Below are positions 25,729 to 57,689 of a stretch of 64,000 nt of DNA, one piece after another (the first letter of the stretch is position 1; each line of letters starts with the position of its first letter). The stretch comes from Mycoplasma sp. (ex Biomphalaria glabrata) (GTDB lineage: Bacteria; Bacillota_I; Bacilli_A; Mycoplasmatales; GCF-1484045): NCBI RefSeq assembly GCF_001484045.1, contig NZ_CP013128.1, positions 228,283 to 292,282 on the forward strand. Direction: 5' to 3'. The translations under genes and the position numbers were made by a program. The notes under the pieces were generated by a model, which was given only the letters and a program-made list of their open reading frames with translations, made no database searches and was not told the DNA's origin.

Positions 25729-27486
25729 TTATCCTTCAATCTTACACATTTTGTTCATAAAGATAACAACGTGCTCAACATCTGTTCCTACAATTATTTG
25801 ATATGAATTTGCACCTAGCCTACGAGTTGCATATGCTCCAGCCGCCTTAATGGCTGCATCATTAATTTTTGAGTTATCCTTAACTTGTAGTCTAATTCTT
25901 GTAGCACAATTTTCTAGAGTAATTATATTGTCTTTTCCAACTTCTTTTAAGAAAATTTCAGCCATACGACGATAGCGATCACTTTTATTTGTACTACTTT
26001 TTGTTGTGGCGCTAATTGATGAAGTTGATGTTTTTTCCCACATGTGTGTCATTTCTTCTTCATCTTTTCTTCCTGGAGTTGGAATATTCATTTTTTTAAT
26101 CAAATAAGAGAATGTAAAGAAATACATGACAAATCCGATAGCGGCAATTGGTCAAACTCATAATGGATTACTAAAAACGGTATTCCCTTGAGCACTAATA
26201 TTATGATCTTGATTAAAAATTGAAATATCTCAACTTGTTTTAAAAGAAATTAAATAATCAATTAACCCAGCTGAAAAACCAAAACCAACATGGATCCCAC
26301 AAGCAATAGTTATAGCACACAAAATTCCTGTAAAAATAGCATGTATTCCTCATAGCAAAGGTGAGACAAAAATAAAAGCAAAAGCAAGTGGTTCATCAAT
26401 TCCTGTTAAAAATGAAACAAATGCTACTCCACCTAAAAAAACTCAAACCTGTTTACGTTTATTTTTAGAAGCTGCATAAACCATTGCAATTGCTGCTCCG
26501 GGTAGACCTCCCAAGAACATTGGGAAATAACCAGTTGTAAATTCCCCTGCTGTATTTAATGAATTTTGGAAAGCATTTATGTCTCCAAAAATTGTTTCAG
26601 TTTGACCAGTGTAAACATTAGTTCCACTAACTGGCAAAGCAAATCATAAAAATGTATTTAAAATATGATGTAAACCAAATGGTTGCATTAAACGATTAAT
26701 AACTCCGTAAATAAATGCACCGATTATTTTTACCCCACTACCTGAACCTAATCAAGTTCCTAATTTAACTAAAGCGAATTGAAATCACGGTCATGTTAAC
26801 GAAAATAATAATGCTAGCGGAATAGATGCAGCTATTCCAACCATCGGAACAAAACGACGTCCACCAAAAAAACTTAAAGCAGCAGGTAATTGAATTTCTT
26901 GATAACGATTATATAGTCATGCAACTATACATCCACAAACAATTCCGCCTAACACTCCTGTGTCCAAAATGTACTGTGGTGCATTTCCCTTTCCCATATC
27001 TAAATACATTAATTCAGATAATGATTGACCATTGCTCATAGTAACATTCAAAACGTGCCCATAAAACAATTCTGGAAACATTCCTTTTGCTGTTAATGAC
27101 TGAAGAATTAAATACGAAATTCCTCCAACAAGTGCAGCTTCTCCACGATTATCTCTAGCTAAACCAAATCCAAGTCCGATTGCAAAAACTAATGCAATGT
27201 ATGTGAATACAGTTGCTCCGGGAATGTGAATTACTTGCCCTATTCAATAAAGAATATGATATCCGATTCCATTTAAAACATTCGATGTTCCCTTTTGAGT
27301 GGAAAGATCTATGAATAGTTGACCGATACGATTCAATAATGCTGCAAAAGGCAAAATTGCTATTGGATACATCAACGCTTTCCCTAAACGCTGTAGTTTT
27401 GCCATCATACGATCTTTAAAGTCAGTATATTTATTTGATTTAATATTATTTAAAGCGGGTGATTTTTTTAATGTTTTTGTATCCAT
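25729..27486 (-). CDS. PTS EIICB transporter, glucose/N-acetylglucosamine family
   Basis: 585-residue sugar permease of the phosphotransferase system. EIIC (about 30-480) has ten or so hydrophobic segments with HHILNTFLWFALP and FLTGIDEPLAFAFIF (the GITEP-type sugar-binding motif). After the linker MNIPTPGRKDEEE comes EIIB with its phosphorylated Cys in ENCATRIRLQ. No EIIA domain is fused, so Crr (55400-55891) may serve it. GAGGGG site before ATG 27486. nagB facing it hints at GlcNAc as substrate; this is inference. Reads through intact, unlike the ptsG paralogue at 55909-57689. Confidence 0.9.
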
Positions 27487-27680
27487 GTTTTTGCCCCTCA
27501 TTTTTAATTTTAAATTAAAAAAAAGAACAATCATTAAGAACAACATTAGGATTTTTAGTTCAACAAAATATTAATACAATAGTATTTTTATATTATTTAA
27601 AAAAACAAATATTTATTAGCATTTTCACATTACTAAGTTTTATATACTAGAAATAGATAAATAATTAAAAAAAGGAATAT

Positions 27681-29234: not shown

Positions 29235-30101
29235 TTAATCAATAATTTTAATGGCATATTTCTTATAGACTTGCAGTTGATTATACATCAGCATTGCTAC
29301 AGTCATAGGTCCGACTCCCCCAGGCACTGGAGTGATCCATGAGGCCTTTTTTGACACTTCATCAAAATCAAAATCGCCCGACAGTTTTCCTTTTTCGTTT
29401 TGAGAAATTCCTACATCTATGCAAATTGCCCCATCTTTAATCATATCGGCAGTTATAGATTTAGGTCTTCCTGTTGCAGAAATAACTATATCACCTAGTT
29501 TTGTAAAATACTTTAAATCACTTATGTATCGATGCGTTATCGTAATGACTGCTTTTTCGTTTAACAACATTAGCGCCATCGGTCTTCCCACTATTTGACT
29601 TCTACCAATAATAACAGCGTGTTTTCCTTCGCATGAAATATTATATTCATCTAGTAATTTCATAATTCCAAATGGTGTACATGCTTGAACATCAGCATTA
29701 TCTTGTGCTAATCTTCCCATGTTCAAAGGATTAAAACCGTCGACATCTTTTTGATAAGAAATTTTTAACATAATATCACGTTTGCGAATTGGTTTAGGTA
29801 GAGGAAATTGAACTAGAATTCCGTGAATACTTGGATTATTATTTAATTCGTCTATTTTAATGTCTAATTCTTCTTCTGTAATGTTTTCATCTAATCTGAT
29901 AATTTCTGAATCAATTCCACAATATTCGCATGCCTTAATTTTGTGTGTAACATATTTTTGGCTTGAATAATTATTACCAACCATAAGAACAACTAATTTA
30001 GGTTTACTAAATCCTTTTTCTATTAAAGTGATGATTTCTTGTTTGATTTGGTCTTTTATTTTCTTAGCTAAAGATGAACCATCTAGTATTTTTGCTGCCA
30101 T
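29235..30101 (-). CDS. folD: FolD, methylenetetrahydrofolate dehydrogenase/cyclohydrolase
   Basis: Bifunctional enzyme producing 10-formyl-THF from methylene-THF. 288 residues: YVTHKIKAC with the catalytic Lys, ILVQFPLPK, DVDGFNPLNMG, CTPFGIM, the NADP fold VIIGRSQIVGRP and PGGVGPMT. It lies directly downstream of the purine operon (54 bases after purD). Its product is the formyl donor of PurN and PurH, so the position is functionally coherent. Confidence 0.96.
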   Translation of the reverse strand: MAAKILDGSSLAKKIKDQIKQEIITLIEKGFSKPKLVVLMVGNNYSSQKYVTHKIKACEYCGIDSEIIRLDENITEEELDIKIDELNNNPSIHGILVQFPLPKPIRKRDIMLKISYQKDVDGFNPLNMGRLAQDNADVQACTPFGIMKLLDEYNISCEGKHAVIIGRSQIVGRPMALMLLNEKAVITITHRYISDLKYFTKLGDIVISATGRPKSITADMIKDGAICIDVGISQNEKGKLSGDFDFDEVSKKASWITPVPGGVGPMTVAMLMYNQLQVYKKYAIKIID

Positions 30102-30129
30102 AAGTCATCCTTTAAAACAAACTATTTTT

Positions 30130-30135
30130 ATTATA
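30130..30135 (-). promoter_or_regulatory. Putative -10 element of folD
   Basis: TATAAT on the minus strand in the 54-base purD-folD gap; a TTAAAA lies about 18 bases upstream. folD may have its own promoter or be read through from the purine operon. Confidence 0.35.
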
Positions 30136-30155
30136 CAAGTTGAAAGAAATTATTT

Positions 30156-31424
30156 TTAAAAATTTTTCCTACCAATGTCTGTACGATAATGAAATTCATT
30201 CCCAACAGAGTTTTCAATTTTGTCATAAATATTTTTGTAAATAACTCGAAATGGTTTTTTTGATTTATGAATAATCATTGCTATTCTTCCACCATTAGCT
30301 AATCATTCGTCATTAACCCGTTTAGCACCCATAATAATTAATTCTTTTTCATCAAATTTTCTCAATGAACTAACATCAAAATCTTTTTTATATTGTTCTG
30401 GATATCCAGGAGCTGCCAAAACAACACCTAAAACGTTATCCTTACTAAATTTTAATTTCAAAGGTTTATTGCTAAAATAATTGTCAAATACTTCTACTAA
30501 ATCATTTTTAAGAAGTTCCATTATTCCTTCAGTTTCTGGATCACCAAAACGAACATTGTATTCAATTACTTTTTGTTCACCATGACTATCTTTCATAATT
30601 CCTGTAAATAACACTCCATAGTATGGGTTTCCGGTATTTGATAAATGATCTACAAGAGGTTTAACGCATGTATTAATAGCTTTTTCAATATCTTTTTTTG
30701 TTAAGTTCTTTGGGTTATTATAAATACCCATTCCTCCCGTATTAGATCCTTTATCATAATTAAAAACACGCTTATGATCACAAATCACTGGCAATGGATA
30801 AATTTCTTTGTCACGAACAATTGTAAGAAGTGAATATTCAAACCCTTCTAGAAATTCTTCAATTACCAAAATATTATCTTCACCATATAAATGTTTTTCA
30901 AAAATTTGTTTTCCGTATTTTAAAGCTTCATCAATTGAGTTAGTAATCAAAACACCTTTGCCACCGGCTAAATTAGAAGATTTAATAACTAGAGGAAATT
31001 TTTTTCAAGTTTTTAAAATATGTTCTAATTCTTTAAGAGAATATGCTTCTAAATATTTTGCAGTCGGGATATTGCATTTATTCATCAAAATTTTTGAAAA
31101 TGATTTAGAACCTTCTAACTGAGCGCAATATTTATTTGGACCAAAGCATTTAATTCCGTTTTTATTCAAAAAATCAACAATGCCGTTTGCTAATTGTTCT
31201 TCTGGCCCCACAACCACAAAATCTACATCGATAGAATTACAGTAATCCAAAATACTGTTTAAATCATTTGCGTTCATTCAGGTTTTTTTATAAACATGTC
31301 TTCATAAACTAGAACCTGGTAACGTATGAATGATTGGTTTGTGTTTAGATTTCAAAAATTTTTTTGCAATTGCATGTTCTCTTCCGCCAGAACCTATTAT
31401 TAAAATATTTTGCTTTTTTTTCAT
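30156..31424 (-). CDS. purD: PurD, phosphoribosylamine-glycine ligase
   Basis: Second step of IMP synthesis: phosphoribosylamine plus glycine plus ATP gives GAR. 422 residues, normal length. ATP-grasp enzyme: N-terminal [27 protein letters not shown]-binding [27 protein letters not shown], the glycinamide signature SNTGGMGIY and [11 protein letters not shown]. Starts one base after the purH stop. Last pur gene of the operon. Confidence 0.95.
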
Positions 31425-31425
31425 A

Positions 31426-32973
31426 TTAGTGTAAAAAATGTCGCTTTCCTGTTAAATACATAACTAAATCTAGTTGATTACATTTTTCAATAACATCCTT
31501 ATCTTTAATGCTACCACCAGTTTGCGCAATTGCTACAATAGGATATTGTGAAATTAATTCTATTGAATCTGGCATCGGAAAAAAAGCGTCTGAAGCTAAA
31601 ACGGCATTTTTTAATATTTCTTTATTACTTTCAAGAGCTAATTTTACTGCTTGAACACGATTAGTTTGACCAACACCGATACCTAATAATTGTCCATTTT
31701 GTGCAACACATATTGCATTAGATTTTAGATGCTTACAAATTTTTCAGGCAAAATGTAAATCATTTAATGCGCTTGCATTCTCTCTTTTTGTTACGCAATG
31801 CCAATTTTTGAAATCATCTTTTCAATCTGGAAAATCTGAATCTTGATAAAGAACGCCACCATTAATTGATTTAAAAGTGAAAGGTTGGTCGCATTTGATT
31901 TCAAAATCAAGAATTAATAATCTTAAATTTTTTTTAGTTTTTAAGATTTCTTCAGCTTCTTTTGTAAAACCTTGCGCAATGATTATTTCCAAAAATATTG
32001 TATTTAATTCATTTGCTATCTTAGGAGTTATAATTGTGTTAGTTGCAATAATTCCGCCAAATATTGAAATTTTATCCCCTTCATAACATTTTCTTCAAGC
32101 TTTATATTCGTCATCATCTATTCCAACGCCACAAGGATTTGTGTGTTTTAACGCTGTATAGCATTTTTTGCTACTAAAATCTCTCACAATATTTATAGCT
32201 GCATTAGCATCATTGATATTGTTATAAGATAATTCTTTTCCGTGAATTTGCTTTGCCTTCAAAATGGTAAATAAATTAAACGCATTGTCTTCATAAACTG
32301 CTGCATCTTGATGCGGATTTTCCCCATAACGGAGGGATTGAACTTTTCTCATCGGAATAGCGAAGTTATCTAAATAACTAATATTATTAATTCTCGAAAA
32401 ATATTGTGCAATTTTAGCATCATAGTAACTTGTATACGCAAATACTTTATTTGCTAAATATTTTCTAGTAGATATGGTCGTTTTACCATATTCAATTATT
32501 TCCTTTTTTACGATTTCGTAATCATTTGGATCAAAAATAACTGTGACGTGCTTATGATTTTTTGCTCCACTACGTAACATAGATGGTCCACCTATATCAA
32601 TATTTTCAACAGCATCCTCGTATTTACAATTTTGATTAGTTATTACATCTTCAAATGGGTATAGGTTAATGACAACAAATTCAATCGGCGAAATATTATT
32701 TTTAACAATTGTTTTAACATGTTCTTCAACATCAAGATCTGCCAATAAGCCGCCATGAATTATCGGATGCAATGTTTTAACTCTTCCATCCAAAATTTCT
32801 TCTGAATGTGTTAAATCCTTAACTTGAATAACATCTAATCCTTCTTTTTTAAGAAGATTAAAAGTTCCTCCCGTAGAAATAATTTTTATTCCATATGCAT
32901 TCAAAAATTTTGCGAATTCAACGACTCCATCTTTTTTGCTAACAGAAATTAATGCATATCTTGTTTGTTTCAT
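31426..32973 (-). CDS. purH: PurH, AICAR transformylase / IMP cyclohydrolase
   Basis: Catalyses the last two steps to IMP. 515 residues. The N-terminal cyclohydrolase (MGS-like) domain shows [29 protein letters not shown] and [15 protein letters not shown]; the C-terminal transformylase has [18 protein letters not shown] with the catalytic Lys-His and QTNRVQAV, and the protein ends GKRHFLH. I chose the ATG at 32973 (AGGGG five bases upstream); ATGs at 32976 and 32988 are in frame. Needs 10-formyl-THF. Confidence 0.95.
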
Positions 32974-32996
32974 CATCACCCCTAACATTTACTATT

Positions 32997-33575
32997 TTAA
33001 TCCCTTTGCTCGTAATTTTGTAATAACTTCTGGAGGGTTTTTATATATAAAACATGTTCGATTTTATGAATTTCATGAGTAATTTCTTCTAAAGACTTTT
33101 CGTAATTTACTTTAATTTTATCTTGAAGAATAATTTTTCCAGTATCAACTCCACCATCAACATAATGAGTTGTTACACCAATATATTCGTCATGATTATC
33201 ATAAGCTTTTTTAATCGCACCAATTCCTGGATAACTTGGTAATAGTGATGGATGAATATTTATAATTCGATTTTGAAACTTATCAATAAAAGATGTAGAC
33301 AATATTTTCATAAAGCCTGCCAATAAAATATAATCCACTTCATCATTTACTAATAAATCTATAATACTTTTTTCAGCATCAGTTTTTGATTTGTGTTGGT
33401 TATAATCGACCAAATATGATTGAATATTTAATTTTTTTGCCCGTTCCAAGATATAGGCATTCGGTTTATCGCAAATAACCATCACTAATTTATATTGATT
33501 TTTATTTTTAATAATATACTCTGCTAGTGCTTGAAAGTTTGAACCATTACCTGAACCAAAAATTGCTATTTTCAT
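32997..33575 (-). CDS. purN: PurN, GAR transformylase
   Basis: Third step: formylates GAR using 10-formyl-THF. 192 residues, normal for the family. Motifs: IFGSGNGSNFQAL, LLAGFMKILS, the catalytic block IINIHPSLLPSYPGIGAIKKA with Asn and His, and VTTHYVDGGVDTG. The start overlaps purM by 10 bases. Folate dependence (rather than formate-dependent PurT) fits with folD downstream. Confidence 0.95.
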   Translation of the reverse strand: MKIAIFGSGNGSNFQALAEYIIKNKNQYKLVMVICDKPNAYILERAKKLNIQSYLVDYNQHKSKTDAEKSIIDLLVNDEVDYILLAGFMKILSTSFIDKFQNRIINIHPSLLPSYPGIGAIKKAYDNHDEYIGVTTHYVDGGVDTGKIILQDKIKVNYEKSLEEITHEIHKIEHVLYIKTLQKLLQNYEQRD

Positions 33576-34588
33576 AAAATATTAATAGTTTTGTTCCCTG
33601 TTATTGTTTCTCCGATTTGACATGCCTTAACGTTATGAAAACTCAAAATTTTTAGCGTTTTTTCTACATCTTTTTTATTTACTACAACAAAAAAACCCAT
33701 CCCCATGTTGAAAATATTAAACATTTCTTTATGATCAACATTTCCTTCTTTTTCGATAAATTGAAAAATACTAGGAACATTAATTAATTCTTCTTTAATA
33801 TTTGCTGATATGTTATCTGGAAAACATCTAGGTAAATTTTCAATTATACCGCCTCCCGTGTTGTTTGCTAAACCTAAAACATCAACCTTCTCAATCAAAT
33901 CCAAAATTGGATTTACATAAATTTTAGTTGGTTCCATTACAATATCCAAAATGCTTCTTCCATTTAGTTGTTCATGATAATGTTCAGGTTTTAAAACCTT
34001 GCGAACTAAAGAATAACCATTTGAGTGAATACCAGACGATTCAAGTGCAATAATTATATTCCCTGGTTTGATTTTACTTCCTAAAATTAATTTTTTCTTG
34101 TTACATATCCCTGTAGCCATTCCAGCCAAATCTAGGTCACCCGGTTTATACATATCTGACATTTCTGCTGTTTCCCCGCCTAAAAGTGCACAATCAATAG
34201 GATCTAAAGACTCAACAATGCTTTTTATAATAATTTCTATTTGATCGGGATTAACTTTGTGTGTGCCAATATAATCTAAAAAAAATAACGGTTTAGCACC
34301 GTGGCATATTAAATCATTAACACACATAGCAACCAAATCTTGTCCTATATTTTCTAAACGATTATGATTTAAAGCAATCATCAATTTAGTACCAACACCA
34401 TCAGTTGAAGATAACAAAATAGGATTTTTAATTTTTAAATGACTAAAATCAAATGCCCCAGCAAACATTCCAATATTATTTTTAAAAACCCCGCGAACTT
34501 GTTTTTTTGCTATCTTTTTAATTCGGTTAACAACTTCATAACCAGCTTCGATATCAACACCTGATTTTTTATAACTATTTGTTTTCAT
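33566..34588 (-). CDS. purM: PurM, AIR synthetase
   Basis: Fifth step: cyclises FGAM to AIR with ATP. 340 residues, normal length. Motifs: KKSGVDIEAG at the N-terminus, LLSSTDGVGTKLMIA, MCVNDLICHGAKPLFFLDY, LLGGETAEMSDMY, GIHSNGYSLVR and NTGGGIIENLPR. The frame passes a TGA Trp two codons before the TAG. ACGAGGT ribosome site. Overlaps purF by 14 bases and purN by 10. Confidence 0.96.
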
Positions 34589-36005
34589 TATTTACCTCGT
34601 TTTCACAATCATGCAATTTACTTGGATATTTTCCTGAAAAACAAGCAGTACATAAATTACCATTTTTAGTTCAACGGTCTAAGCTTTTTTGCAAGCCATT
34701 TAGTGAAATAAATTCTAATGATGTTGCATATTTTAAATTTCTTAAATATTCATCTTTAGATTGAGCGTATAATGCCAATTCTGCTCGTCTTGAAGTATCA
34801 ACACCATAAAAACATGGTCATTTTATTTCTGGACTTGCAATCCGTATATGGATTTCCTTAGCACCCGCATCATGTATTAATTTAACAATTGATTTCATTG
34901 TTGTTCCGCGGACAATTGAATCATCTACTAAAATTACACGTTTATTTTCCAAAACATGTTTATTAGGATTTAGTTTCATCATTACGATGCGTTCACGTTC
35001 CTCTTGAGAAGGAGCGATAAAACTTCTTCCGATATATTTATTTTTAACCAAACCAATGTCATAAGGTATTTTAGAATATTGACTATACCCTAAAGCAGCA
35101 GATAGAGAGGAATCTGGTACTCCAATTACAATGTCAGCATTAAGGGGGTGTTCTTTAGCTAATTCTCGTCCTGTTTGCACTCTTTTTTCATGAACATTCT
35201 TTCCTTCTAAAATTGTATCTGGTCGGGCAAAGTATATATATTCCATTGCACACATATTATTTTTGCATTGCTTAGGTGGAGTATAATATTTGCTACTAAT
35301 ATTGCCGTCATTTGATATTTCTATAATTTCACCTGGTTCAACATCTCTAATGAAATTAGCGCCAACTGCATCCAATGCAACAGTTTCTGAGGCTAAAATA
35401 TAACCGTCTTTTAATTTTCCTAAAACTAAAGGTCTTAATCCTCATTTGTCTCGACAACCATAAATTTTATTATTTTCAATAACAATAAAACTAAATGCTC
35501 CGACTAGTTCTTTTAAGGATTCGTCAATTTTGTCAATTGTTGTTAATTTTTTTGATGTATTTATTAAGTGTCCTAATAATTCTGAATCAGAAAAAGAAAA
35601 GAAAATACTTCCGCGTTTTTCTAATTTTTTTTTCAAAGTTGATGCATTAACGATATTACCATTGTGGCACGTAACATATTGTGTATGGTGTAAAGTGAAA
35701 ACAAATGGTTGAATGTTAATTGTACTTTTCCCACCAAAAGTCGAATATCTAACATGTCCAAGCCCGATATTACCTTTTAGCGATTCCATATCTTCTTTTG
35801 AAAAAGAATTAACGATTGAACCTTTTCTCTTAACGATGTTTACCATATTATTATCGATAGTTACCATTCCTGATGCCTCTTGCCCACGATGTTGTAAAGC
35901 ATGTAAACCTAAATATAAATAATAATTAGCATTGGGTACATTAATAACACCAATAACACCACATTCTTCATTTAGTCCATGAAAACTAGAATCTTTAAAT
36001 GACAT
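34575..36005 (-). CDS. purF: PurF, amidophosphoribosyltransferase ([4Fe-4S] type)
   Basis: First committed step: PRPP plus glutamine gives phosphoribosylamine. 476 residues. A 14-residue propeptide (ending GLNEE) precedes Cys15, the predicted N-terminal nucleophile after cleavage, as in Bacillus. Glutaminase motif LGHVRYST; PRPP motif VILVDDSIVRGTT. Four cysteines match the Bacillus [4Fe-4S] ligands: one in NMCAMEYIYFARPD, one in KWPCFYGVD and two in LCTACFSGKYP. So the enzyme probably needs the SUF machinery. ATG 36005 overlaps purC by 11 bases. Confidence 0.96.
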
Positions 36006-36693
36006 TTTTTAACCTTTCCAAAAATTCTTGGTAACCTTTTACCAAGTCACCTTTTTCTTCGCGATATAAATCTTTATCTAAAGATTCTAAACTTTTCTTA
36101 TCCACAAGTCTCATACAATCGGGTGTAATTTCGTCAGCCAAAATAATTTGATTTTTATATCATCCTAACTCTATTTTAAAATCTACTAACATAATATCCA
36201 TTTTGCTAAATAGATTTTTCAAAGCAATATTAACACTCAGCGCTATCTTTTGAATTTGTTTTAAATTTTTTTCAGTAACAATACCTAAACCAATTATTTG
36301 TGATTCAGAAATCAATGGATCACCCAATTCATCATTCTTTAAACTAAACTCTACAATTGGTTTCTTAAAAAGAAAATCTTTTTTTACACCTAATCTTTTT
36401 ACTATACTTCCGCGAGCTTGATTACGAACAATAATTTCAAGAGGAATAATATCAACTTTTTTACAAAGTTGTTCAATTTCACTTAAATTCTTGATAAAGT
36501 GCGTTCTTATTCCTTTGTTTGCCAAATACTGAAACAAAATTGTTGTTATTTCGCAATTCAAAATACCTTTTAAATTAAATTGATTTTTTTTCAGGGAATT
36601 AAATGCCGTAACGTTATTAGTGTGCTCAATAACAACATTATTTTCGTCGTATTTGTAAACTTTTTTAGCTTTTCCTGTGTAAATTAGCTCCAT
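35995..36693 (-). CDS. purC: PurC, SAICAR synthetase
   Basis: Seventh step: joins CAIR and aspartate. 232 residues, the usual bacterial size. MELIYTGKAKKVY, NNVTAFNSLKKNQF, PLEIIVRNQARGS, the LADEITPDCMRL segment and KGYQEFLERL are canonical. An AGAGGT ribosome site lies before ATG 36693; the start codon overlaps the purL stop by one base (TAATG). Confidence 0.95.
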
Positions 36694-39600
36694 TAGTGTT
36701 TACCTCTTTTTGTAGATTTTTTGTAACCTACTATATATTTAACACCATTTTTAAATACATTAGTAGGTGTGTTAATAGATAGATTTTGAAATAAATCGGA
36801 AGCAATTCTTTCTGGATGGCCCATTCTGCCTAAAATTAATCCATCAGAGGAAACAATTCCTTCGATTGCCCCAATTGAACCAGAATAATTATAAGTTTCT
36901 CCAGGAAATTTCTCTCCTTCGTCTCAGTAAATTGAAAAAATTTGCCCTGAATGTAGGTACTTTGTTAATTGTTCTTTACTTAACACAAATCTTCCTTCTC
37001 CATTAGAAATGGGAACGTCGTTAATAGTATGAAGATTTTCATAACGTAATCAGGGAGAAGCGTTGGAAATGACTCTCGTTGTAACAATCGATGAGGCGTG
37101 GCGGCCTATAGTATTGTAAGTTAATGTTGGACTATCACTTTTTTTCATAAAATTTCCTTGAGGTAATAACCCCGCTTCGACTAAGGCTTGAAAACCATTA
37201 CAAATACCTATAATTAGTTTTTTAGCTTTTAAATGCTCATGAATAACTTTTGCAATTTTTGGAAGACGTAAAATATTAGCAATAAATTTTCCACTACCAT
37301 CTGGTTCATCTGCTGCACTAAATCCACCTGGAATAGCAAAAATGTCGCATTTTGCAATTTTTTTTGCTAACTCATCAATTGATTTTTCAATGCTTTTTCG
37401 ATTAAGATTGGTAAAAATAAATAATTCAGTTTTAGCTCCTTCATTTTCAAAGGCTTTTTGTAAATCATATTCGCAATTTGTTCCCGGAAAAATTGGAATA
37501 AGAACATGACATTTCTTTTTATTAAGAGGGTCAACATCTTTGATATTATAGTACATTGGTTTTTTAACTTGTTCAATTTGATTTGGTCATGCTGAATAAA
37601 TTTTTAAATATTCTTTTATTTGTGGAAGTTCTGGAGCATTTTTCATATCTAAAACAAGTTTGTTATCAATTATCACAATTGACGAGTGAATTGTATTTCC
37701 GATATGTCTTAAAAGCGGGTGGTCAACCTCTACTGAACTTTCAATAATAAATGAACCTGGTTGAACTTGATTTAAATCTTCTGAAAATAAATTTAGACCC
37801 AGCATATTCCCGATTGCTGCACTCATTAATGTTTCGTAAATTCTACGATTTGAATTAACTATAATTGAGTTAACATTTTCATCTTTTAAAAGAACTCCGA
37901 TTAATTCATAAATTTCCTTTAATTTGTCATAGTCTGGAATTTTTAAATTATCTAATGGTAATTTAATAAAATAAATAAAACTATCGCTTTGTACAAAATG
38001 CGATGGTTTCACTTTCACTAATTCTTCGACAGTGAAACCAAAACTAATAATCGTTGGTACTACGTCAATTTTCTCAAAAGAACCTGACATCGAATCTTTC
38101 CCACCAATTGATGCCAAATTCAGAGCTTTCATTGATTTATATGCTCCAAGTAGTGCTAAAAATGGCTGAGCTCATTTTTCTGGTGATGTTAATCGGCAAA
38201 AATATTCCTGAAAACTGAATCTAATTTTTTGATATTTACCACCTCTTGCAACGATTTTGGAAACTGATTCAATAACTGAAAAAATTCCTGCGTGATATGA
38301 TGAGTGATTAGCAATTGCTGGGGAAAAACCTACCCCAACAATTGCTTTAAAATTATGCTCTTCATTATCCAAAGGAATTTTGGCAACTAATGTATTTGTT
38401 TTTGACAGTAAATGTTTCCCAGCATATGGACTCATAACTGTTGTTCGCCCAATTGAACTATCGAAATATTCAATCATTCCTTTTTGAACACAAAGATTTA
38501 AATCTTTATTCATCTCACTACCATCTCAAACATCTGCGCAGTCGACTATATTTGGCACGCCCAAACCACAAATTTTAACTTGTGTTGTTTTTTTTGCTCC
38601 GTTAGTTTTTAAAAAACTACGATCAATATTCACAATGATGTCATTTTTATATTTTGCTACTAGTTTTTCATCAGCGGTAACTTTACCAACAACATATGCT
38701 TCCAAATTTTCTTTGTTACAAATATTAATAAATTTCTTAACATTTTCTGGATCAACTACAACAGCCATTCTCTCTTGCGACTCGCTAAAAAGTATTTGAT
38801 AAGGATTAATTCCTTTATATTTGATTAAAAATTTATCTAGGTAAATTTCAACACCATCGCTAATTTCGCCAATGGCAACACTAGCCCCACCAGCGCCAAA
38901 ATCATTACATTTTTTGATTAATTGCGAAAATTTATAATTTTTACGAAATAATCTTTGCATATTTCGTTGAATAATTGCATTACCTTTTTGGACTTCACTT
39001 GCAATGTTTTTTGATAAATCTTTTTTATGACTCTTACTACTTCCACTAGCTCCACCAATGCCATCTATACCAGTTCTTCCTCCAAATAATATAATTACAT
39101 CGCCAGGTTGTGGTTCTTTTTTATTTAAATTATTTTCTGGTGCTACCCCTAAAACTGCTCCACACTCTAGATGTTTAGCGACATAACTTGGATCATAAAA
39201 TTCTTCAACAAGTAAACACGGCATTCCGATTTGATTTCCATATGAACTAAAACCGCGTGTTGCTTGTTTTGAAATTTTTCGTTGTGGTAATTTTCCTTCT
39301 AAAGTATTTTCCACTTTTTCTAAAATATTCCCGCAACCAGAAATTCTTATGCCGGCAAATGCATATGCACGATTTGCCAAAATATCACGAATTGCTCCTC
39401 CTAAACAAGTTGACGCTCCACCGAATGGTTCAATTTCAGTTGGATGATTATGAGTTTCGTTTTTAAAATTAAAATAGTAATTTTTTTTGTTTGCCTCGAA
39501 TTTTATCGAACACGCATTAATTTCATCTGATTCTTCTAAATCATTTAAATTTCCACGATATTTCTCTAAGCGAGCATTAATAGTAGCCATTTCCATTAAA

Positions 39601-40394
39601 GTTAATGGTTTTTTGTCCAATTTTAGCATTTTTCTTGTAGCATTATAGTCAGTAATTGTATTTTTTATTTCTTCATCGATAACGTCATAACAAATTAATT
39701 CAACATCCGTAATCTCAGTTGAAAAGGTAGTATGACGGCAATGATCACTTCAATATATATCAAATAAAGTTAATTCACTAAAATTAGGATTTCGATCAAT
39801 TGATTTAAAATATTTTTGAATCTCTACTAAATCATCTTTATCAAGCGATAATCCCAACTCTATAACAAGTTCATTAAGTTCATTAATTGATAGCAAGTTA
39901 AAATTGCTAACTTCTTTGTTTTCAAAAGGTGTAATTGTAAATTCTGGTTTTTCAAATATAAATAATTCTTTTAATCTAGATTCAATAGGGTTAATAATAT
40001 AATTGGAAATCTTATTAAATTCATTGTCACTCAATTTCTCGTTAAAAACCAATAAAGTTCCTGTGAAAATTTCAATATCCTTGTTTGGAAAATTTAATTT
40101 ACAAATTTTTTCAGCGTTATCTTTTCGGATATCAAATTGTAAAGGAAGTGGCTCATAAGATAGAAATTTTTGATCTTTTAAATCAATATCTGTAATGAAG
40201 GAATCTGTGTTTACCTTTGCAAGTATATTTTCCATAATAAAATTTTCTTCATCTTTAGTAGCGTTAAAAATATCGTATACATTATAATATTCGATTGATT
40301 CGAGAGTTTCAATATTTAAGTCATTTTGGAATTCAGAGAAAAGCGACTTTTCTTCCATATTAAAACCATTTTTTCGTTTTACAAAATATCTCAT
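36693..40394 (-). CDS. purL: PurL, large single-chain FGAM synthetase
   Basis: Fourth step: FGAR to FGAM with ATP and glutamine. 1233 residues in one chain: N-terminal PurS-like region, linker with WSDHCRHTTF (Trp is TGA), two AIRS-type halves (FKNETHNHPTEIEPFGGA; GAGGASVAIGEISDG; SIGGKDSMSGSF) and a C-terminal class I glutaminase (PGTNCEYD, GICNGFQALVEAG with the nucleophile Cys, GHPERI). This is the large form of Clostridia and Gram-negatives, not the separate PurS/PurQ/PurL of Bacillus. GAGGGG site before ATG 40394; no frameshift seen over 3.7 kb. Confidence 0.96.
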
Positions 40395-40395
40395 A

Positions 40396-41514
40396 TTACC
40401 CCTCTTTATCTAAAATTGATTTAATTTTATCAATTATTTCAACTTCGCTTTCAAGAATATTAATGTGTGCCATTTTGCGATTATATTTCGTTTCTTCTTT
40501 GAAATAATCAACAAAATCTAAATTTCTATTTAGTGGATAATTTTCCATTAGTTGCTTAATTTTTACATAATGTTGACCAAGCACATTGAACATAACAGCC
40601 TTGTGTTCAAAGACCTGTTTAGGTAGAGATTTATTTAATAAGATGTATGAAATAAAATCGAATTGAGAATATCGCATTGATAGCATTGTGTGATGACCAG
40701 AGTTATGCACTCTTGGAGCCAATTCATTTGCGATTAAATTTCCTTTTTTATCCAAGAAAAATTCAATCGATAGTATGCCAGAATTAGGTAATTTGTTGGT
40801 AATTTTCTTAAAATAATTTTTCAATTTATTATTAACTACTTCATCTAAAAATGGTTTTGAGGAATATAGAATTCCATTTTTATGAGTATTTTCATTTATA
40901 GCACAAATTTGTATCTTTTGGTTGTAATAAACACCTATTACCGATATTTCCTTAACATAATCAACAAATTCTTCTAAAATACATTCTGATGTTTCAACTA
41001 ATTTAATAGCTTTTTCAATAGCATTAATGTCATCTTTATTTTTTATTACAACTTGCCCTTTTCCGTCGTAGCCAAGTTGCGTTGTTTTCAAAATACACGG
41101 ATAAGATGTCATATTTAAATAAATTTTCAAATTAGTTGAATTGTTTATAATGTGAAATCCGGCTGTTTTAATGTTCAAATTGCGGAATAAATTTTTTTCA
41201 AGAATACGGTTTTGCGAAATCATAAGTGGTGTTGTTGTTTGAAGACACTTTGGGTTTTTCTGATTAATTATCTCTAACGAATTAATTGGAATATTTTCGA
41301 ATTCATAACTTACTATATCTGATTTAGAAAAAAGTTCAGATAGTTTTTTTTCATCACCGTATTGTCCAACAATTATTTCATCAGCATAAAAAGAAGCACT
41401 ACATTTTTTATTAGGGTCTAAAATTATAACGTGCGTCTTATTATCTAAATATTTTAACGATAATGTCATTAGCATTGCTAATTGCCCGCCACCAATAATT
41501 CCAACTCTCTTCAC
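40396..41514 (-). CDS. purK: PurK, N5-CAIR synthetase
   Basis: Sixth step, first half: carboxylates AIR with bicarbonate and ATP. 372-residue ATP-grasp protein with VGIIGGGQLAMLM, LKTTQLGYDGKGQVVI, ILEEFVDYVKEISVI, NELAPRVHNSGHHTM. The start is GTG at 41514, supported by GAGGT six bases upstream. One base after the stop begins the purL ATG; purE lies 4 bases upstream. Confidence 0.95.
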   Translation of the reverse strand: MKRVGIIGGGQLAMLMTLSLKYLDNKTHVIILDPNKKCSASFYADEIIVGQYGDEKKLSELFSKSDIVSYEFENIPINSLEIINQKNPKCLQTTTPLMISQNRILEKNLFRNLNIKTAGFHIINNSTNLKIYLNMTSYPCILKTTQLGYDGKGQVVIKNKDDINAIEKAIKLVETSECILEEFVDYVKEISVIGVYYNQKIQICAINENTHKNGILYSSKPFLDEVVNNKLKNYFKKITNKLPNSGILSIEFFLDKKGNLIANELAPRVHNSGHHTMLSMRYSQFDFISYILLNKSLPKQVFEHKAVMFNVLGQHYVKIKQLMENYPLNRNLDFVDYFKEETKYNRKMAHINILESEVEIIDKIKSILDKEG

Positions 41515-41518
41515 TAAA

Positions 41519-42010
41519 TTACCTCTTATTTTTTAATTCTTTATTGCTATTAAAAACATTTTCTTTCATGTTCTCTTTATAACTTTTAAGTTTATTTAAA
41601 AGAGTATTATCAAATAAACTTAAAATTTTGCATGCAAATAAAGCGGCATTGGCGGAATTATTCACACCCATTGTTGCAACCGGAGTTCCTTTTGGCATTT
41701 GAACTATTGACATAACAGCATCAACGCCTTGAAATTTATCACTAAATATTGGAACACCTATAACCGGTAATATAGTTAGTGATGCTACCATTCCTGGCAA
41801 ATGAGCACTTCCGCCTGCTCCAGCAATAATAATATCATAGTGATTATGTGCATTTTTCGCGAAATCATACATTCATTCTGGTGTACGGTGAGCCGACACA
41901 ACTTCTACATCATAATTAACACCCATTTGATCAAAAATTTTTGTGGCATCTTCCATTCCGAAAAAATCGTTTTTTGAACCCATAATGATTGCTATTTTAT
42001 TTTTTAACAT
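41519..42010 (-). CDS. purE: PurE, N5-CAIR mutase
   Basis: Sixth step, second half: converts N5-CAIR to CAIR. 163 residues: IAIIMGSKNDF at the N-terminus, VVSAHRTPEWM with the catalytic His, IAGAGGSAHLPGMVAS, TILPVIGVP and MPKGTPVATMGVNNSANAAL. Sequence form and the presence of PurK indicate class I. It sits one base after purB. Confidence 0.96.
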
Positions 42011-42011
42011 A

Positions 42012-43298
42012 TTAAGCAATTCCTAATCTTTTATAAACAACAGGGATGTTGTCTAAAAATGCGGATAAAGAAAAACAGGTTGATAATTCTGCTTGTGATA
42101 GTGGGATATTATTATCTAGCAATAATTGTTTAAAATCTAATTTATTTTTATAAGCTTTCATAGCAATTGGTTGGATGAAGTCGTATGCTTGTTCTCTTGA
42201 TCAACCCTTGTCAATTAGTTTTAACATAATTTTTTGGGAAAAAATCACTGAACTTGACATAAAAATATTTTCAAGCATTCTAGACTCGTTAACAACTAAG
42301 TTAGATAAAATGCTCTTAGTTCTTCTAATAGCGTAATGTAATACTGTTGTAGCATCAGGAATGATAACGCGCTCATTTGATGAATGGGAAATATCTCTCT
42401 CGTGTCATAGTGCAACGTTTTCAAATATTGTTACCATGTAACCACGAATCAAACGAGCAATTCCACAAATATTTTCAGAACCAATTGGATTACGTTTGTG
42501 TGGCATAGCTGATGAACCCTTTTGTCCTTCACTAAATCCTTCCTCGCATTCCCCAACTTCTGTTCTTTGGAGATGACGAATTTCAGTACATATAGTTTCT
42601 AAAGTAGATGCTATTAATGCTAATGAAGCTAAATATTGTGCATGACGATCTCTTGCTAAAACTTGAGATGAAATTTTCGAAGAACTTAAATGTAATTCTT
42701 CACAAACAAATTCCTGAATTTTTGGATCGATGTTAGCGTAATTACCTACTGCACCCGACACCATTCCTGTTTCAATAATTGAGCGAGAAGTTAAAAATGA
42801 TTTAAATGCGCGCATCAACATATCGTATCAACCTGCAAATTTATAACCAAAACTAGTTATTTCAGCATGCATTCCATGTGTTCTACCTATACATGGTGTC
42901 AATTGATATTTAATTGCCATTTTTTTGATGACTTCTAATAATTCTCATAATTCCTTATGTATAAATTCATTTGCTTGCTTGATTAGACAAGAATTAGCTG
43001 TATCGACAAGATCAGATGAAGTCATTCCATAATGAATTCACTTTTTTTCCGGTCCTAAAGATTCACTTACACTTCGCGTGAAGGCAATAACATCGTGCTT
43101 TACAACCTCTTCTAATTCAGCCATTAGTTTTAAATCAAATTTTGCTTTTTTACAAATTAAGTCGTAATCGTGTTGTGGAATTTCTCCCTTTTCCACAAAT
43201 GCTTTAACAACTAAAATTTCAATTTTTAATCATCAACTAAATTTATTTTCTTCACTTCAAACTTGTTCCATTTCAGGCGTAGAATAGCGCTTAATCAT
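42012..43298 (-). CDS. purB: PurB, adenylosuccinate lyase
   Basis: Used twice: SAICAR to AICAR in the IMP pathway, and adenylosuccinate to AMP. 428 residues. N-terminal [39 protein letters not shown] and the lyase signature [17 protein letters not shown] with its catalytic Ser loop. AGGAG ribosome site about 10 bases before ATG 43298. Three bases after purA. Confidence 0.96.
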
Positions 43299-43301
43299 AT
43301 A

Positions 43302-44585
43302 TTATCACTCCTTATTTACAAGAATAGTTTGTTCCCTACTTGGTCCACATGAAACTAAAGCTAATTCACAATTTAATTGTTCTGCAATGTATTCTAAATA
43401 TGTTCTACAATTTTTTGGTAAATCTTTATATTTACGAACAGTTGTTAATTCATCATCTCATCCTGCAAAAGTCTTATAAACTGGTTGACATTTTTCTAAA
43501 ATTTTTAAGTCTGCTGGGAAGTCGTTAATAACGACACCATCAAGTGTGTAGTGTGTACAAATCTTAATATTTTTAATACCACTTAGTACATCTATTAGTG
43601 CAACTGATAATAAATTAACACCACTAACTCTTTGAGAATGTCTTAAAACAACTAAATCTAGTCATCCTATTCTTCTTGGTCGTTTTGTCACTGTTCCATA
43701 CTCGTGACCTTTTTCACGAATAGTATCTCCTATTTCTGAAATTTCTTCAGTTAAAAATGAACCTTCACCCACTCTTGTGGCATAAGCTTTAATAACACCT
43801 AAAGTGTTATTGATGTTATGATAATCAATTCCGTTACCCAACGCGATTGAAGCAGCGGTTGGTGATGATGATGTAACGTATGGATATGTTCCGTGGTCAA
43901 TACACAGCATAACTCCTTGAGCACCTTCAAACAACGCATTTTTTTCTTGCTTAAAATTTTTCTCCAAGTATGCTCCAGTGTTGTCAACATATTTTTGTAT
44001 TTTCTTACCTTGCTCAAAATATTTATCAACAATTGGTTCAACTTCGAAGGTTTCTTTTCCAAATGCCTTTAAAATTTGGTTTTTTATTTTCAAAGCAAAA
44101 GTTATTTTCTTTTCTAACTTCACTTTGTCGAATAAATCGTGAACGCGAATTCCAATACGACTGATTTTATCTTCATAACATGGTCCAATACCACGTTTAG
44201 TCGTTCCTACTTTTTCGGCACCCTTTATTTCTTCATATAATTCATCCATTGCAATGTGATATGGCATTACTAAATGAGCTCGATCTGATATTTTTAGTTT
44301 TGTTCCATTGTTTAAATTTTCTAAAATCTCGATTTCATAGGCTAGAGTGTCTAAATTAACAACAACACCATTACCTAGGATAACTGTTTTATTGCTGTGT
44401 AGAATTCCAGAAGGTAATAAACGTAGTTTATATTTAACATTGTTTACAACAATTGTGTGACCAGCATTGTCACCACCTTGAGAACGGACAATATTATCAA
44501 AACTATCAGTTAAATAATCGATAATTTTACCCTTACCTTCATCTCCTCATAACATTCCAACGACACATAAATTTTGCTTTTTCAT
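43302..44585 (-). CDS. purA: PurA, adenylosuccinate synthetase
   Basis: Commits IMP to AMP using aspartate and GTP. 427 residues. GDEGKGKIID P-loop, GGDNAGHT, TTKRGIGPCYEDK, ALFEGAQGVMLCIDHGTYPYVTSS and VTKRPRRIGWLDLVVLRHSQR. First gene of the purine operon, 8 bases after the ktrB stop, so no room exists for a purine riboswitch or leader; transcription may come from within or before ktrB. The last codons (GAG TGA) use TGA as Trp before TAA. Confidence 0.96.
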
Positions 44586-50645: not shown

Positions 50646-52777
50646 TTATTCTTTTAGAATATCTACTAATTCTTTTTTGCCTAAAATTGATATATTTAAT
50701 TTTTTTGCTTTTTCTAATTTACTTCCTGGATCGGTTCCGCAAAGCAAATAATCTGTTTTAGAAGTAATAGAATTCGAAACTACAGCGCCATATTTATTTT
50801 CTAAAATTTTAATAATTTTGTCTCTAGAAACATTAAAAGTTCCTGTTATCACAATTTTTTTATTAAAATATTGTGTTTTTTCAAAAATAGAAGTTGATTC
50901 TTTCGTTGAAAGACTTAATCCGCATTTTTTTAAATTATTAATTAATTCTAAATTCTTTGGATTTTTAAAAAATAAAAAACAGAATATGCAATTTTTTCGC
51001 CAACAATATTTAAAGAATTCATGTCATCTATTGTTGCATTGATTAAATCATCAATATTTTTATATTCTTTTGCTAAAATTTTAGCAATTTTTTGCCCAAC
51101 ATGTCGAATGCCTAATCCTGTTAAAACTAGAACTAGATCGTTTTTTTTGGAATTCTCTATTGAATTAACTAGATTTTTTATCAGTAATGAATTTTCTAAA
51201 TCAACTTCCGTGCCATCAATATTTTTAGAAAATTTTTTAATTGCTTTCAGCAAAGCTAATTGCATTTCTTTATTTTTTGCTAATTTATAAATATCTTCAA
51301 TTGTTTCTATTATTTTATCCTGAATAGCATATTCAATAATTTTTTCGCCCATTCCTTGAATATCCATGGCATTTCTTGAACAAAAATGAATTAGTGAAGC
51401 CTTTATTCTAGCTGAACAATTCAAATTTGGACAGTATTGATCAACATCATCATCATATCTAATCAATTCACTGCCACAAATTGGGCATATAGTTATTTCA
51501 GAAAATTTTTTACTATTTTTTTGGCGCTTATTAAAATTAACACGTAACACTTTCGGAATTATGCCTCCAGCTTTTTTTAAAAAAACAAAATCTCCTTCGC
51601 GAATATCTAATTTTTCAACGTAGTCATAATTATGTAAAGTTGAAAAAGTTACTCGTGAACCTTCCAAAATTACACTATCTAATTTAGCATTATATGTCAC
51701 TTTGCCGGTTCTGCCAATTGTTACATATATTTGTTTTAACTCCGTCTCAACCTCTTGTGCTGGAAATTTATAAGCTATTGCCCAACGTGGAAATTTGTCC
51801 GTATTCCCAAGAAAATTTTGAATTTTAAATTCATTTATTTTTATTACTATCCCATCTGCTTCAAACAACATTTCTGTAATTTCTTGATTTTTTTCTGTTA
51901 GAAATTTTTTAATATCCGTCATTGTATGTAGATGTTGATAACTTGGTTCAACATTAAAATGATTAATCTTTAGAAATTGTAAAATATCTAATTGAGAATT
52001 AAATGATAAATCGTATTTTGGTTCAATATTGTAACCAAAAAAAATTAGTTTATTAATCATAATTTTTCTTAATTCGTTAAATCTATTTTGATTTAAATTA
52101 TTAGAAATTTTATTTTTATTAATATCGCGAACTAATCCAGATGTTGTGTTACGAGGATTAGCAGGGATCAACCTTTCTTTTAGATTATTTGCTAATAACT
52201 CCTTATTTAATTCAACAATTTGATTTTTATAGTTAGCAAAATTTTCTTTCGACAAGATGATTTCACCACGAATTTCGACATGTTTATCCTTTATTGAAAT
52301 TGTTTGGGGGATAGTTGGGTTAGATATTAAATTCTCAGTTACATCTTCACCGTATTCTCCGTCACCTCTTGTTAAAATTTTGACAAGTTTTCCGTTTTCA
52401 TAATGAATACTCAAACTTAGTCCATCTATCTTATACTCGCAAACGTAACTAAATTGTTCATTTTGATTATCAAGTTTGCGAATAATACGTTTTTCAAATT
52501 CTAATAAATCTGCAAAACTAAAAGCATTATCTAAGCTAAACATTCTTTCTAAATGCTTGATTTTTCGATGAGTTCCAAAATAACCTTTACCCACTTGTTG
52601 AGTTGGTGAATTCGGTAAAATAAACTCTGGATATTTTTTTTCTAGTACTTTCAGTTCTTCTAATTTGGCATCAAATTGTTGATCAGAAATGCTAGATTGA
52701 TTTAATGAGTAGTACTCATGATTGTATTTATTTATTTCGTTAACTAATTTTTCTATTCGTTCTTTAATATTGTTCAT
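50646..52777 (-). CDS. ligA: LigA, NAD-dependent DNA ligase, with a frameshift near 50970
   Basis: Joins nicks in DNA using NAD+. From ATG 52777: Ia domain, adenylation domain with CEYKIDGLSLSIHYENG (catalytic Lys), OB fold, zinc finger CPICGSELIRYDDDVDQYCP, helix-hairpin-helix region with GLGIRHVGQKIA. This frame stops at 50948. The rest (FFKNPKNLELIN, then BRCT domain VITGTFNVSRDKII to 50646) continues in another frame with no stops. One extra T in the T6 run (complement of 50967-50972) joins both into about 710 residues. The gene is essential in general, so an assembly error or slippage is likelier than decay. Confidence 0.92.
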
Positions 52778-55908: not shown

Positions 55909-57689
55909 CTAAATACTATCATAATAACTTTGATATTTAACCTTAATTATTGATGCTAAATTACCATAAATTATTTGAATTTCATTTTTTGAACGATTAA
56001 CTCCAAAAGCACTTACTTTTGACGCTCAGTTACCTTGTTCGACTTTACTTGCATCAATAACTGTAATTCTTAATCTTGATGCACAATTTGATATTGCCTT
56101 AATGTTACTTTTTCCACCTAAGCATTTTGTTAAAACTTCAAATTTTGCTTTATCATCTTCTGCTGAACTAACTTTCTTTCCGGATTTAGTTGCTTGATAT
56201 TCAGCTTTAGAAGCTAATTTTGCTCCTTCAGCTCTTCCTGGTGTTGGAATGTTTTTCTTTGTTATATAAAAATAAAAACAAAATAATAAATAACAGCGTA
56301 TGGAATACCAATTACAAATACTCATCAGAAACCAGTATTTAGGTTTTGACCCGGAACAACAGAGTGATTAAACATCGGTAATACTCCATAAACTAATAAA
56401 TCAACTGCTCCACCTGATAATGTCATTCCAATATTTGCACCCAATAAGTTCATTAGCATAAATGAAATACCTGCCATAATCGCATGAAAACCAAAGAAAA
56501 GTACTGGTGCTAATAACAAGAAAGTATATTCAATTGGTTCTGTAATACCTAATAAAAATGATGTAGAAGCAGCAGAGATAATCATTGTTCTTGCTTCAAC
56601 TCTTTTTTCTTTAGGTGCAGCCATGATCATCGCATAAGCAGCTCCTGATAAACCAAATATCATAAATGGATATTTACCTTGCATAAAACGACCCAAATTA
56701 AAATTTAGTCTTTCACCGTTATGAGTAAAATAAAAATTATCTGCTGTTCTAAATGGAAAACCTAATTGTTGAAAAGTAAATCACATTTTACTATCACCTT
56801 GTCAATTATAATTTTTGTAATCCAATCCTAATGACTGAAGGTAAGCGGCAATAGTTCCTTCATCTTTTCCATTAATTCAAATATGATCAACATTCGGATC
56901 TAATGAACCACCAGCACCAGTTCATCATAATGGTGCATAAAATACGTGATGTAGCCCAAAAGGTACTAAACATCTTTCTAATATACCAAAAATCAGCGAG
57001 TCTAATCCTCCTGGTAATTTACCAGAATTTTCACCTACTCAATTTAAACCGATTGAAAATAGTGGTCAAACCAATAAGAAAGCTATTCCGATAAGCGCAC
57101 AAACCGGAATAACAATGATTCCAACAAATCTTTCTCCCGAAAAGAATTGAATTAAAATTGGTAATTGTGTTGAGTTAAAACGGTTATATAACTTAGCGAC
57201 CACCCCACCAATTACCATACCCCCAAACACACTCGTTTGAACTTGTGTAATTGAACCAACAAAATTAGAGGCAATTTGATTACTTAAATCTTTATAAAAG
57301 AAAATATTATAAAGTGTATCACTAGCTCCTGGAGTTACTGGTTTAATAAAAACAGATTGAGCATAAGCAAAAGCAAAGTAACCTAAAGCTGCTGCAAACG
57401 CTGCATAAGCTTTCTCATTAGCGAAACTCATCGCTATTCCGATCGCAAAAAATAATCCCAGTGAATCAAATAAAAATTGGCCCAGATTTTGGATTTCTGT
57501 TCCAATATCTGCGCCAACAGATCCCTTAGCGACATTATTAACGATTGTAGCACCAATTCCTAGGAATAACCCAGCCAATGGCATAATCGAAACGGTAACA
57601 AATAAGCCTCGAGAAAATTTATTTAGTATTTCACGAAAAGAAAAATTGCTGTTTTTTCAAAAAACTAATTTTTGAATTTTAGTATTCAT
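55909..57689 (-). CDS. ptsG: PtsG-like PTS EIICB, with a frameshift near 56276
   Basis: Sugar permease of the PTS. From ATG 57689 (AAGGGGA site) the EIIC domain has the helices, [19 protein letters not shown] and [18 protein letters not shown]. That frame ends at 56262. The linker [12 protein letters not shown] and the EIIB domain with Cys in [10 protein letters not shown] lie in the next frame and end at 55909. One extra T in the T5 run (complement of 56274-56278) fuses them. The paralogue at 25729-27486 has the same domain order without a break, which supports a single original gene. Sugar is probably glucose. Confidence 0.88.

Follow-up and report, generated by a model that had tools for sequence, protein, structure and literature searches.

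In nanopore assemblies, many genes are split by deletions at homopolymers, mostly of A/T and two to eight bases long, and A/T homopolymer deletions in long-read assemblies can pseudogenise a large share of the genes in a genome (PMC12007338). Frameshifts at A/T runs have also been described in endosymbionts, where frameshifted genes are rescued at long poly(A) tracts in 12–50% of their transcripts (PMC5009743). The classical cases of slippage involve runs of nine or more bases. LigA variants of E. coli, Thermus and Deinococcus that lack the BRCT domain still seal nicks (PMC10504179).

Here we describe a ligA gene that is divided between two reading frames in a genome assembled as a single contig of 647,830 bases. 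The window, that is, the whole stretch of DNA analysed around the gene, comprises 64,000 nucleotides. With a GC content of 29% and TGA read as tryptophan (code 4), the genome is that of a Mollicute. The window also holds, at 29235-44585, a long purine-synthesis series (folD, purD, purH, purN, purM and purF, continuing with purC, purL, purK, purE, purB and purA; all named by eye from their translations), which is unusual for a Mollicute genome so small.

The main ligA frame lies on the minus strand, where it runs from an ATG at 52777 to a TAG at 50950-50948, encodes 609 aa and matches the NCBIfam LigA model with 550 bits. The adenylation domain (aa 70-341), OB domain (aa 344-421), zinc finger (aa 431-456) and helix-hairpin-helix (HhH) domain (aa 551-605) of a LigA all lie in this single frame, which stops just past the HhH domain, exactly between HhH and BRCT. 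The BRCT domain, which in a LigA shares this frame, is absent from it in the assembly and sits in the −1 frame, which means that one base is lacking. On the same strand, this second frame is open over 50646-51059, encodes the end of the HhH-BRCT linker followed by the BRCT domain, and closes with a stop of its own; FFKNPKNLELIN and the BRCT domain together span 50984 to 50646 within it, the Pfam BRCT match (42.9 bits) covers ∼50864-50658, and the peptide LEKAKKLNISILGK is an example from the BRCT part. An effect of the genetic code was rejected because the main frame, as far as its stop, has the same translation with table 4 as with table 11. An independent start for the BRCT piece was likewise rejected, as no start codon was found near the junction; the first listed start of the BRCT frame is a GTG at 50852, inside the BRCT match.

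Both frames are open over 112 nt (50948-51059, minus strand), and the shift could formally fall anywhere between 51059 and 50948, although alignment with relatives favours the T runs within this overlap. The junction reads G-T6-A-T6-A5 (50962-50980, minus strand), with the missing base placed by alignment to the relatives: the sequence AKSVVEWFKNP of one of them (L006) aligns without gaps to AYSVFYF/FKNP here and puts the shift at the T runs. Of 29 relatives with loci read in frame, all except one encode HhH and BRCT in a single frame. Similarly, within the order a profile built from the joined HhH and BRCT domains found matches in 282 of 298 genomes; most of the matches listed spanned it from end to end, whereas the present genome gave two separate matches. 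Conservation of a single frame in nearly all relatives argues that the split seen here is more than chance. The one exception among the 29, locus L022 in genome G015, shifts out of frame and then back again within the linker and BRCT; the ligA copies of close kin of G015 are intact.

Decay of the BRCT domain was rejected, because its score against the relatives' profile (90 bits) lies in the middle of the relatives' own leave-one-out range (56–122 bits). A second ligase compensating for a broken ligA was also rejected, since a genome-wide search found one NAD-dependent ligase adenylation domain only and no match to an ATP-dependent ligase. Much of what the preliminary description had said about the locus is thus borne out. 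ORF reading and domain matches agree with a catalytic frame that ends at 50948 and a BRCT domain that continues, free of stops, in the next frame; the alignment with relatives agrees with one T lacking at a T run, to which the 112-nt overlap adds a minor correction; and both the undecayed state of the downstream part and the single copy of DNA ligase hold.

In contrast, the implied specialness of ligA does not hold, because the same one-base shortfall recurs in unrelated core genes throughout the genome. The scan for frame changes covered the window and 13 further stretches of 20 kb from the same genome (324 kb, about half of the genome), and splits were found by coding potential combined with NCBIfam family models. 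In each of five genes, consecutive stretches of a single NCBIfam model are matched by two different frames: tkt, encoding transketolase (A6 at L038:8263-8272; profile positions 3-173 then 172-650), der (A7 at L039:16655-16667; 2-341 then 334-432), mnmE (A8 at L042:3966-3973; 3-300 then 312-446), yebC (A7 at L038:19370-19380; 1-186 then 188-238) and fakA/YloV (A7 at L040:1341-1347; 1-138 then 136-530). The split of a GmrSD-type gene follows the same pattern (A7 at L035:14760-14770; GmrSD_N 2-152 then 130-198). Within the window, ptsG, a PTS glucose-type IICB gene (55909-57689, minus strand), is one base short, with its IIC part (57689-56262) and its IIB part (down to 55909) in different frames and T5 runs at ∼56278-56268; a ptsG paralogue at 25729-27546 is intact. 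A homology scan with few reference genes had suggested ligA and ptsG as a special pair, a view that was rejected when coding potential and NCBIfam models added more genes.

A further case is very probably lysS (A5, L042:19672-19740), in which, read by eye, the N-terminus MEYNRKFSEQEQIRRDKKK meets a stop and EKLKNLGFENY goes on one frame back. This gene and a split, unnamed ORF in L035, which has no family match, are weaker cases than the others. Among the matches listed, there was no second full copy of tkt or der.

All ten cases (nine computed, and lysS by eye) lack one base and none has an extra one, an outcome expected once in 1024 if both signs were equally likely. Nine of the ten have an assignable A/T run, which is five to eight bases long (T6 in ligA). 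The fraction of short runs rises with the inferred run length, from 2/1022 at six bases through 2/439 at seven and 4/143 at eight to 1/8 at nine; this climb from 0.2% to 12.5% rests on nine cases. There is about one split for every 30 kb of coding DNA. Unlike genes in real decay, the conserved coding DNA inspected showed no genuine stop codon in frame.

Junctions of this kind were nearly absent from three control genomes: a scan for start-less junctions flagged 5 in 298 kb of coding DNA of the present genome and one each in G024, G016 and G036 over 351–376 kb of coding DNA. The scan missed splits with a chance start codon nearby in the present genome, and the control counts leave out G010, which was sampled less, as well as two other Mollicute genomes, G001 and G003, which have many flagged junctions (10 and 13, respectively). 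Several of those in G001, a genome with a completeness of 81%, appear to split conserved genes, and G001 may also carry assembly errors. A cross-genome tblastn comparison was noisy from rRNA and tRNA shadows and was used as support only.

We conclude that the ligA split is probably an error of the deposited consensus, for which homopolymer undercalling in a long-read assembly would be the technical cause. The T run would have lost one T when bases were called or the reads assembled, and living cells would make an ordinary single-frame LigA with its BRCT domain. Most likely, an error of this kind affects nine or ten genes, ligA among them, in the half of the genome that was sampled. The shift lies in a homopolymer, recurs genome-wide as deletions and has a rate that rises with run length, as undercalling predicts; ten one-directional, run-length-dependent shortfalls out of ten match the error profile of long reads, and their occurrence in unrelated core genes argues for assembly error rather than new biology. 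Der, LysS and LigA are essential proteins, and the joint loss of their functions is not credible in a living cell, which also points to the consensus. Whereas the preliminary description had looked to transcript editing and mixed run lengths, genome-wide recurrence points to the assembly instead, and overall the earlier reading of ligA is partly supported.

Some observations stand against undercalling. The genome is 97.5% complete, and its A/T runs show no obvious truncation and are about as long as in a relative with a similar GC content. In addition, replication slippage in AT-rich symbionts also yields run-length-dependent shifts, and many junctions were flagged in G001 and G003 too.

An alternative explanation, which we consider unlikely, is that the deletion is real, that the cell lives on a LigA without BRCT, and that the frame with BRCT is a pseudogene fragment of recent origin. 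The position of the truncation at the HhH/BRCT boundary fits this explanation, as do the nick-sealing activity of the BRCT-less enzymes cited above and the shifts in the ligA BRCT region of G015, a member of the same order. The earlier point that ligase is normally essential stands for the ligase, but loss of BRCT is not the same as loss of an essential function. E. coli LigA without BRCT supports growth if over-expressed (Wilkinson 2005, as that work is cited in PMC10504179), which is the basis for this distinction, and by analogy a BRCT-less ligase could be viable here. However, the BRCT sequence is undecayed, and a ligase without BRCT offers no explanation for the same defect in der, tkt and lysS, genes whose loss would do far more harm.

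A real deletion could also be tolerated if RNA polymerase slipped at the T/A runs of many genes at once and full-length protein were made as a result. The runs do lie in an AT-rich reduced genome, frameshifted genes are rescued in the transcripts of endosymbionts as noted above, and the E. coli RNA polymerase favours poly(T) (PMC6260861). However, the runs here are just 5–8 bases long. In reporter assays, indel bypass by the E. coli polymerase took at least seven T, and more still for A, and insertion at T6 affected <1% of transcripts (PMC6260861); the T6 run of ligA is thus shorter than the roughly seven T or more that are needed (PMC6260861). Slippage also leaves unexplained why every case is one base short, and we regard it as very improbable. 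The more general proposal that the short runs are real, and that this Mollicute corrects about twenty genes, core ones included, by general polymerase or ribosome slippage, seems barely plausible to us.

Least probable of all is programmed −1 ribosomal frameshifting at U UUU UUA, which would yield two ligases, one with and one without BRCT. An HIV-type heptamer (T TTT TTA) does lie in the zero frame within the junction (50972-50966, minus strand) and, judging from the codons, slippage at this site would yield a protein of suitable length. However, this heptamer is the automatic remainder of a T7 before A from which one T has been removed, 27 such in-frame heptamers occur in the coding DNA of the window, the downstream RNA folds no better than shuffled sequences (z of −0.46 and +0.36), the relatives read keep both domains in one frame, and in E. 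coli A_AAA_AAG causes much more frameshifting than U_UUU_UUA (PMC5009743). By eye, no Shine-Dalgarno-like stimulator was seen upstream of the ligA shift. Furthermore, the overlaps of ptsG, der and yebC lack a slippery heptamer, and thus the split genes have no shared recoding signal.

If the shortfalls are technical, as we favour, the gene list of this genome cannot be taken literally: ligA, ptsG, tkt, der, mnmE, yebC and fakA would be mis-annotated as broken, lysS probably so too, and accurate reads would be needed before gene loss or recoding is claimed for this lineage. If instead the short runs were real, the genome would display a striking genome-wide tolerance of frameshifts.

As in −1 frameshifting of the dnaX and HIV types, an in-frame X XXY YYZ heptamer is followed by a continuation in the −1 frame; here, however, there is no stimulatory structure, the split is not conserved, and the heptamer would be a by-product of the deletion. 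The slippage rescue described in Buchnera and Blochmannia (PMC5009743) resembles the present case in that useful genes of a small AT-rich genome are frameshifted at A/T runs, but it involves long poly(A) tracts and was demonstrated on transcripts, whereas the runs here are 5–8 bases long and all one short. The LigA variants of E. coli, Thermus and Deinococcus without BRCT (PMC10504179) end at the same domain boundary, and a truncated product could work in the same way; those variants were engineered, however, and here the BRCT sequence is present and undecayed. Compared with nanopore and PacBio drafts (PMC12007338), the density of splits in this genome is well below the worst published. In common with such assemblies (e.g. 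Kastor, PMC12007338), the present one has one-base deletions at short A/T runs in conserved genes, and a risk of deletion that increases with run length.
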